DNA from: Cyclobacteriaceae bacterium | GTDB lineage: Bacteria; Bacteroidota; Bacteroidia; Cytophagales; Cyclobacteriaceae | Direction of reading: 5' to 3' | NCBI GenBank assembly: GCA_019694875.1 | Contig: JAIBBC010000001.1 | Span: forward strand, 62,001 to 126,000 | Length of the DNA stretch: 64,000 bases | Shown here: positions 986 through 3,254 of the stretch, in pieces | How positions within the stretch are numbered: position 1 is the first letter of the stretch | How the letters are laid out: every line of letters starts with the position of its first letter | Position numbers and translations under genes: made by a program | The notes under the pieces: model-generated | What the model was told of the DNA's origin: nothing | Databases searched by the model: none | Seen by the model: the letters and a program-made list of their open reading frames with translations, nothing else

Positions 986-2688
986 TTAAAAATCAGTATC
1001 TAACCCAAACCGGTCTTTTAATTCCTTCACAACGGGATTTTTTTCCATGAGATGCTCAAGCTTCTCGCGATTGGTGTAGAGTACCTTTTTATCGTCAGCA
1101 ACAGTTTTAATCTCTCCGCTAAGCTGGAGCGTGTCGTTGCTTACCTGCTCGCGCAGAAATGTTAGCAGATCGAGCTTCATTTCATCGAGCAGTGTTTCCT
1201 GGAAATGGTTATGCAGCGGAACGATTACTTTATTCTCCCGAAACTCAAATCCCTGCGAAAGCAAATGGTACGTTGCTACGTAAGGCTTTTTCGTTTCTGC
1301 GAAGGCATCCCATGCACGCTTCAGTTGTTCTTGCGTAAACGGTTTATTTGTCTTTTTCTCCGCTACCGGACCGTTCTCCTTTTTTACACCACCCTTCAGA
1401 ACTGATTTCAGATCGGAAATTTTCGGAGTACTGGTCTTGGCTGCACGCACGGGTTCATCCGTTTGCTGCGATTGGTTTTTTTGTTCTGAAACGACAGGGA
1501 AATTTTCGGCTGGCTCTTCCGCTTTTGTTACCACTTGCTCAGCTTCGGGTTCGGGCTGATCGGCCGGAGGTGCTACGCGGTCACTTTTTTTTTTACTGCC
1601 GAAGAATTCTCCGCAGGTAACTGATCGGGCTGGATGGCTGATTGCACATGCGCCATTTTCATGAGCGCCAATTCCACCAGCAAGCGCTGATTCTTGCTCG
1701 CTTTGTAGTTGATGTCGCACTGACCGGCAATGTTCAACCAACTCAGTAACAACGATGGTGAAGCGGCCATGGCCTGCTGCGCATATTTTTTGCGAACGCT
1801 GTCGGGCACTTCCATCAACTCGGTTGTGCGTGCATCCTGCGACACCAGCAGGTTGCGGAGATGTTCTGACAATCCTACAATAAAATTATGACCATCGAAT
1901 CCCTTGCGCAGCACTTCATCGAGCAGCAACAGCGGCTGCGTGTGATTCTGCGAAAGCAACGCATCTACCACACCGAAATAATAATCGTAGTCGAGGATGT
2001 GCAGGTTAGCGAGCACATTCTTAAACGTGATCGGCTTGCCGGCAGAATACGTAACCATCAAATCGAAGATCGAGAGCGCATCGCGCAACGCACCGTCAGC
2101 CTTCTGGGCAATCAGGTGCAGCGCCTCTTCTTCAACTTTTATTTTTTCATGCTTCGCGATCACACCCAGGTGCTTCGCGATATCGGAAATCTGGATCCGG
2201 TTAAAATCAAAAATCTGGCACCGTGAAAGAATAGTCGGGATAACTTTGTGCTTTTCGGTGGTTGCCAGAATAAAGATGGCGTAAGACGGGGGCTCCTCCA
2301 GCGTTTTCAGGAACGCGTTGAATGCCGCGTTCGAAAGCATGTGAACCTCGTCAATGATATACACTTTGAATTTTCCGAACTGAGGCGGGTAGCGTACCTG
2401 GTCGATCAGGTTACGGATATCCTCCACGGAGTTGTTGGAGGCTGCATCGAGTTCGAAAATATTAAGTGAATTGGTTTCCGCTTTTTCCTCGAAGCCGTTG
2501 ATCAGCCGGGCCACAATGCGGGCACAGGTGGTTTTACCTACTCCACGCGGACCGCAAAACAGCAGCGCCTGGGCAAGCTTGTTGGAATCGATGGCGTTTT
2601 TGAGTGTGGTGGTGATATGCTCCTGGCCGACAACTTCATCGAAGCCGGTGGGGCGGTATTTGCGTGCCGATACAACAAAATTCTCCAT
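986..2688 (-). CDS. dnaX: DNA polymerase III gamma/tau subunit, split by a -1 frameshift
   Basis: Clamp-loader ATPase of the replisome. From the ATG at 2688 (MENFVVSARKYRP, the usual family start) the zero frame has Walker A GPRGVGKT at residues 46-53, the sensor/Walker B region with IIDEVHMLS, and the SRC motif of the AAA+ domain, then stops at 1573-1575 after KKKVTA (371 residues). The C-terminal third (Pro/Glu-rich linker and the tau-like end KNPVVKELKDRFGLD) continues in the -1 frame to 986, giving a 567-residue product if ribosomes or polymerase slip on A10. This resembles the programmed gamma/tau production known for E. coli and Thermus dnaX. The four-Cys zinc module usual after Walker A is absent. 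A homopolymer sequencing error is the alternative explanation for the split. Confidence 0.88.
1585..1594 (-). other. A10 slippery run in dnaX
   Basis: Ten consecutive A residues in the mRNA sense. In the zero frame the run reads GTA AAA AAA AAA GTG ACC GCG TAG and ends the short product. Reading one base back gives AAA AAA AAA AGT GAC and opens the long frame. The local context A-run then GTGACCG is similar to the E. coli dnaX slip site, and a GGAG lies 14 bases upstream of the run. Ribosomal -1 shifting or transcriptional slippage (one added A) would both give the long form. Confidence 0.6.
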
Positions 2689-2861: not shown

Positions 2862-3250
2862 GGGGTCGACCGGTTTTGACAGGATGTGTGAAGCCGCAGG
2901 CCAGCATGCAGGCTCATGAGGGTAGAGCCTTGAACACTGCTCTCACAATTTACGTGGCGAAAATACTTACGCCATGGCTGCTTAATCTGACGATACGTTA
3001 GGTTAGCCTCGCCCCGATAAGATCGGGGAAGCCATCATCGCTCAGTTCTTCGTTCTGCCGGAACTGGTTTAGCGGTGTCGATAGCCAGGACTGCTCCGTG
3101 TGATGTTGCTAAGCGCGGCTAAGACTCAGTAACTAAGGAAACGTTTAGGCTGTTGCCTGCCTTGCGATTCCCGAAAATTAAAGTCAACTAAGCATGTAGA
3201 ATCTGTTGTTTTATCTTCTCTGGACGAGGGTTCAATTCCCTCCGACTCCA
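2862..3250 (+). ncRNA. ssrA: tmRNA (transfer-messenger RNA)
   Basis: Ribosome rescue RNA. The 5' end GGGGTCG pairs with CGACTCC near the 3' end to make a seven-base-pair acceptor stem with one G-U pair, and the T-arm sequence GGGTTCAATTCCC precedes it. The discriminator A is at 3250; CCA is not encoded (CAT follows). The tag reading frame starts at 2956 and reads GENTYAMAA followed by TAA at 2983-2985, close to the GENNYALAA-type tags known in Bacteroidota. The middle contains pseudoknot-like inverted repeats such as CCCCGAT/ATCGGGG. Its own promoter element and terminator flank it. Confidence 0.96.
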
Positions 3251-3254
3251 CATC

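Follow-up and report, generated by a model that had tools for sequence, protein, structure and literature searches.

The split dnaX gene of a Cyclobacteriaceae bacterium carries a conserved A10 run that is probably a programmed slippage site

We find that dnaX in the window (the whole 64,000-nucleotide stretch of DNA analysed here) is split between two reading frames at a run of ten A, and that this run is probably a programmed site of RNA polymerase slippage. Because what is conserved among Bacteroidota relatives appears to be the run itself together with stops in both other frames, these features point to transcriptional slippage, which we consider more likely than ribosomal shifting. The observations behind this reading are the sequence, its conservation, a trap of stops beside the run and flips of the default frame. 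More broadly, the window gene appears to be a real, programmed, two-product gene of a kind described since 2013.

Results

dnaX is divided between two frames at the run

The gene lies on the minus strand, and the ten T at positions 1585-1594 of the plus strand are therefore read as A10 (1594-1585). Its features are as follows.

986..2688, minus strand: whole dnaX gene, with a tau of 567 aa if the mRNA has one extra A
1573..2688, minus strand: dnaX zero frame from ATG (2688-2686) to TAG (1575-1573), gamma-like product of 371 aa with a TIGR02397 match above cut-off and the Pfam gamma/tau domain III
1585..1594, minus strand: A10 run, proposed slippage site, codons GTA AAA AAA AAA GTG, kept in relatives
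1573..1575, minus strand: zero-frame TAG ending gamma, 9 nt past the run
986..1594, minus strand: -1 frame extension with the tau-specific linker and C-terminal part, stop codon at 986-988, C-terminal PRK14971 match

Past the run the zero frame continues as GTG ACC GCG TAG, i.e. three sense codons and a stop. With one A added, a single 567-aa frame extends to position 986 (tau, 63.8 kDa; gamma, 41.5 kDa), while an A9 reading ends at 368 aa and an A12 reading at 369 aa, leaving -1 as the only long frame. The zero-frame part is DnaX (TIGR02397, 378.5 bits against a cut-off of 250). The -1 part has no Pfam match but aligns with positions 412-613 of the 614 positions of the gamma/tau model PRK14971 (E 5.7e-21); its 75 bits fall below the cut-off of 685, as expected of a partial sequence given that this cut-off applies to the whole protein. 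The preliminary description of this DNA had reported a dnaX split at A10 with products of 371 and 567 aa, and we confirm the split, its coordinates and both lengths. In the window the zero frame thus yields gamma and ends there, with tau in the -1 frame of the following ORF, so that the unslipped product is not tau. If only gamma were made, the -1 frame would be a decaying remnant; nothing besides the stop itself speaks for this, and we consider it highly improbable because the -1 frame stays open for ~199 codons beyond the run and aligns with the C-terminal portion of the gamma/tau model, and because the relatives compared also have an open tau frame after the run.

A tmRNA gene (RF00023, 117 bits; 2862-3253, plus strand) adjoins dnaX in divergent orientation and was the sole match to Rfam at gathering scores in the whole window. 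The pattern C-x(6-14)-C-x2-C-x2-C, which we take to be a zinc module in DnaX, is absent from the window DnaX at residues ~61-80 (2449-2508, minus strand) and from 89 of the 106 genes of the window's family, and it is present in 111 of 181 other genes, some of which are N-terminally cut.

The run is conserved in the genus and widely in Bacteroidota

dnaX was present in all 17 genus genomes (own included) and matched in 187 of 196 genomes of the family. Sixteen of the 17 genus genomes (own included) have A10 with tau at -1, although the contig of G004 breaks off shortly beyond the run; the remaining congener, G009, has A11 and an uninterrupted frame of 561 codons. For a wider comparison we took 291 loci from the genus, family, order and phylum and from a named collection, and kept 287 after dropping three that were too short and one duplicate. 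A run of A9-A12 is found at this site in 273 of these 287 distinct Bacteroidota genes (A10 in 231, A9 in 21, A11 in 20 and A12 in one) and a run of fewer than nine in 14, where the run was sought within ~110 codons past domain III and displaced runs count as absent. Elsewhere in the gene there is a single run of at least nine A in 296,138 nt of gamma coding sequence upstream, and there are 8 in 126,280 nt downstream. Because the run is present at the site in nearly all genes and rare elsewhere, its presence is more than chance.

We took the tau frame to be the longest open frame past the run rather than assigning it by gene-by-gene homology. Of the 287 genes, 173 have tau at -1, 108 in the zero frame and 6 at +1; the run-bearing genes among them (273) divide into 173, 95 and 5, respectively. 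These proportions are not prevalences, as 120 loci were hand-picked, some for a long frame and part mostly for a short one, and the assignment is ambiguous in L189 and L297, with the frames of L285 and L297 broken by TAG. In the named set, which consisted of the best 80 matches of a scan and was not picked by frame, 67 of the 77 genes analysed have a run of at least nine, and tau is at -1 in 19, zero in 55 and +1 in 3. The order-level matches, partial and second matches included, comprise 73 short and 71 long frames among 144. Among named genomes, tau is at -1 in Flavobacterium denitrificans, F. psychrotolerans, Chryseobacterium lathyri and Halpernia humi, and in the zero frame in several Pedobacter, Mucilaginibacter and Hymenobacter, a Dyadobacter and Chitinophaga terrae.

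Misreading of the homopolymer in sequencing had been raised as the alternative; with such an error, or one of assembly, the true gene would be A11 with one frame, a structure that the congener G009 has. We regard an error as scarcely credible, given A10 in 16 of 17 genus genomes, A10 in 231 genes from many genera with differing flanks, and stops beside the run that exceed synonymous expectation (see below). The run in relatives had also been proposed as the test that could refute the idea; close relatives share the same A-run, and this conservation strongly supports programmed recoding of dnaX. The case is not confined to a single bacterium, the run being common to a wide Bacteroidota set. Nothing in these comparisons indicates that clamp-loader stoichiometry is regulated, as had been suggested.

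The window's own genome contains 13 A10 matches at 12 places. Three of these (L045, L050 and L055, at C1:419448, C3:82137 and C4:500057) lie within long open frames, with 101, 354 and 91 codons remaining beyond A10, and might slip too.

Stops close both non-tau frames beside the run

In the window, an A-run of at least nine stands next to stops in both non-tau frames, as in the Thermus type. A zero-frame stop follows the run by no more than 24 nt in every gene with tau at -1 (173 of 173), and 94% of these genes also have such a stop in the third frame; control values are 39% and 49%, respectively. Where tau lies in the zero frame and the run is at least nine (n=95), the other two frames stop within 24 nt in 86% and 99%, compared with 40% and 51%. 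We compared the number of genes in which both non-tau frames are closed within 24 nt with synonymous shuffles, in which the tau codons past the run were replaced according to each gene's own usage. Both frames are closed in 163 of the 173 genes with tau at -1, against 48.5 expected, and in 81 of the 95 with tau in the zero frame, against 24.2 expected; the highest values in 300 shuffles were 64 and 34 genes, respectively. At a control site 150 nt downstream there was no excess of closed frames (25 versus 28.2 and 14 versus 15.5). In a set thinned to 48 genes of less than 60% ungapped identity, both frames are closed in 23 of 26 genes against 7.4 expected and in 17 of 21 against 4.3. Because the excess over synonymous shuffles survives thinning, the stops in both unused frames look selected. 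Slippage would send messages into all three frames, whereas a ribosomal -1 shift needs no stop in the third frame; the three-frame trap therefore fits RNA polymerase slippage better.

Features of ribosomal frameshifting are unevenly present

If instead ribosomes shifted by -1 on A AAA AAA within the run, tau would be made from an mRNA that keeps ten A; we judge this rather unlikely, and the evidence on it is divided. Tau lies at -1 far more often than at +1 (173 genes against 6), a direction bias that could arise from slippage adding one A but also from ribosomal -1 shifting. The window's own genome yielded 35 tRNA hits, all of which were read (150 of 262 candidates scored), and a single tRNA-Lys (UUU) among them leaves room for ribosomal shifting. 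By the same count, an argument for slippage from two tRNA-Lys, as in Thermus, does not apply to this genome.

A slippery heptamer is found in some genes: 28 of the 32 phase-1 A10 genes with tau at -1 have a G past the run, giving a zero-frame A AAA AAG, and ribosomal shifting may add to slippage there. By contrast, the window gene (GTA AAA AAA AAA GTG, hence no A AAA AAG) and the other phase-2 genes (122 of the 156 A10 genes with tau at -1) lack a zero-frame AAG at the run. A purine-rich, Shine-Dalgarno (SD)-like sequence directly before the run (at most -6 kcal/mol) is present in 20-21% of cases, compared with 2% elsewhere in the gene, and its mean is -3.73 compared with -3.29 in synonymous shuffles (lowest of 40, -3.66), such that the enrichment is mostly, but not wholly, due to amino-acid make-up. 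The 70 nt downstream of the run in the window fold at -17.7 kcal/mol (z -0.71), and 45 of 200 shuffles fold as well. In five congeners the z values of the same region range from -0.04 to -1.94; two of the five beat nearly all shuffles (z ~-1.9, with 5 and 9 of 200 as good) and the other three do not. Over 145 thinned genes with tau at -1 there is no mean excess of downstream folding (-9.21 versus -8.99 in control windows).

Three further points weigh against ribosomal shifting. Judging by the site of E. coli, a run of six or seven A would be enough, but ten are maintained; stops close the third frame as well; and the same run is present where tau is templated in the zero frame. The resemblance to E. 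coli that had been noted for the bases after the run is thus not the conserved feature: the window has no zero-frame AAG, and downstream folding exceeds control neither on average nor in the window.

The default frame has flipped while the run was kept

On a tree of the 287 gamma regions, the polarity of the gene changes at least 31 times with the run kept, as counted by parsimony on one FastTree tree with branch support unfiltered; shuffled labels on the same tree gave a mean of 78 changes (lowest of 200, 69). Among the 228 genes with exactly A10, there are 23 flips by the same count. Two close pairs, L006/L007 and L107/L043, differ by one A, and in other close pairs both members have A10 and the difference lies beside the run. 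Two Aquimarina (L277 and L278) have opposite polarity. Such drift of the default frame would be expected with slippage frequent enough to make it nearly irrelevant which frame is templated.

The close pairs one A apart would also fit phase variation at the DNA level, in which cells would differ in run length and tau would be switched on or off accordingly. We consider this very unlikely: A10 predominates (231 of 287), slippage would yield both products from either state, and a switch that removes tau should not be kept so widely, as tau is expected to be essential. Slippage remains our preferred reading. The congeners L006 (G009, A11) and L007 (G016, A10), between which the default product changes between tau and gamma, form a natural test pair.

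Some Bacteroidales dnaX genes have an in-frame UAG or other splits

Of the 14 genes without the run, 11 are plain single frames, one (L267) is split and two have an in-frame TAG just past domain III, with tau continuing in the same frame; these two are from Bacteroidales. A search of 61 genomes in the family to which one of them belongs gave 57 matches, eight of them with one internal TAG, which makes nine distinct genomes with TAG (these eight and L285).

UAG-type dnaX, without an A-run: L285 2788-2830; L297 3099-3140; L340, L341, L343, L344, L346, L350, L355

TAG ATH GCN AGR is found in 9 of 9, encoding Ile-Ala-Arg and varying at third positions only, and beyond AGR there is a short inverted repeat and then a GCACGG-like stretch standing in different frames. 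The consensus fold of this element has three pairs (-3.7 kcal/mol), a weak structural signal, and two of the sequences folded singly were no more stable than shuffles. Our first guess from these sequences is programmed readthrough, a candidate route to gamma and tau, and reinitiation or bypassing at the UAG could also be at work. Genome-wide reassignment of UAG looks unlikely, since a 783-807-nt open frame downstream of dnaX ends with TAG in L285, L344, L346 and L350, though it is possibly not one gene in the four genomes. No relatives of the UAG lineage were found among 395 genomes of the class at E 1e-165, the one match (G720) having no internal stop, and a literature search by title and start of abstract found no description of UAG-type dnaX.

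Twenty loci were read in the family of the UAG genes, and the other 12 are uninterrupted, five with A10 and seven without a run of at least nine. A10 is near the usual place in L359 and at codons 449-461 in L345, L348, L349 and L352; in these four and in L250, another uninterrupted dnaX with A10 at codon 454, the run lies ~80-100 codons farther downstream than usual and may be a relocated slippage site or have arisen by chance. Twenty further loci were hand-picked from the same family, and of the 17 that were readable, 12 have tau at -1 behind an A9-A11 run; no run stands at the site in the remaining ones, two of which are split and three uninterrupted. In three Bacteroidales genes, L267, L363 and L374, dnaX is split past domain III at a site that lacks an A-run, and tau is at +1, +1 and -1, respectively; another recoding signal or an assembly error is possible there.

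Discussion

We propose that RNA polymerase, on reaching ten template T, adds or drops A and so produces mRNAs with mixed numbers of A. An mRNA with A10 (or A13) would meet the zero-frame stop just past the run and give gamma of 371 aa with the ATPase domains and domain III; one with A11 (or A8) would join the -1 frame and give tau of 567 aa; and one with A9 or A12 would run into the immediate third-frame stop and give a gamma of 368-369 aa. Gamma would thus come from two of the three frames and tau from one, and in this way a single gene could supply both clamp-loader subunits without special stimulators. Slippage in this organism, its efficiency and the use of both proteins are inferences.

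Beyond the window, we tentatively suggest that selection may keep two DnaX products widely in Bacteroidota, whatever the means: through an old A10 site that is nearly fixed in length while its default frame drifts (at least 23-31 flips) and, in at least one gut Bacteroidales lineage without the run, through an in-frame UAG with a conserved element, gamma arising by the stop and tau by readthrough. The 11 plain single frames among the 14 run-less genes speak against this suggestion. That a wide group retains the run and, beside it, stops in the two unused frames is relevant to the question of gamma's importance beyond E. coli. With the G009/G016 pair and the flips, one can test whether A10 slippage comes near the level at which the templated frame is neutral. 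Gene callers ignorant of the site would label such genes frameshifted or truncated, and tau may consequently be missing or mislabelled in many Bacteroidota genomes.

For dnaX slippage in Bacteroidetes, a literature search found only Antonov et al. 2013 (PMC3711429). The available portion of that paper describes a new dnaX type, of 17 genes in 12 genera, in which tau needs recoding; nine of the genes have 10 As, Chloroherpeton and Chlorobium have 9, 8 and 7, and transcriptional realignment is proposed for the two-ORF genes with 10 As. The kind itself was therefore already known (PMC3711429), and what we contribute is its extent in Bacteroidota and the frame flipping, of which the search, in mostly open-access journals, found no description.

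Comparison with known dnaX systems

The preliminary description had read the window gene as a gamma/tau two-product layout modelled on E. coli and Thermus; programmed recoding stands, but the layout is that of neither, because the unslipped reading here gives gamma, as in the type of Antonov et al. In E. coli, available parts of the literature describe A AAA AAG, an SD-like element and a stem-loop acting in a ribosomal -1 shift (PMC5009743, PMC3711429). The two systems share two products, the -1 direction and a stop adjoining the site. They differ in that the zero frame of E. coli encodes tau and shifting makes gamma, and in that the window lacks both an AAG codon at the run and a hairpin more stable than in shuffles.

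Slippage has been published for the A9 run of Thermus thermophilus dnaX, according to the text available of PMC5009743 and PMC1088944. The window gene resembles it in having an A-run of the same kind, nearby stops in both other frames and two products, but in Thermus the unslipped frame is tau and slippage makes gamma, the reverse of the window. The 95 run-bearing relatives with unslipped tau are like Thermus in this respect and the window gene is not; the review, in its available part, states that the gamma and tau roles seem reversed in fewer bacteria (PMC5009743).

The closest match is the type of Antonov et al. 2013 as its accessible text presents it, with a zero frame leading to gamma, tau made by recoding in the -1 direction and mostly 10 As; the window gene likewise has A10 at the junction, conserved in relatives. 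To those 17 genes the present comparison adds 173 genes of the same layout and 95 with the opposite default, together with a test of the closing of the unused frames.
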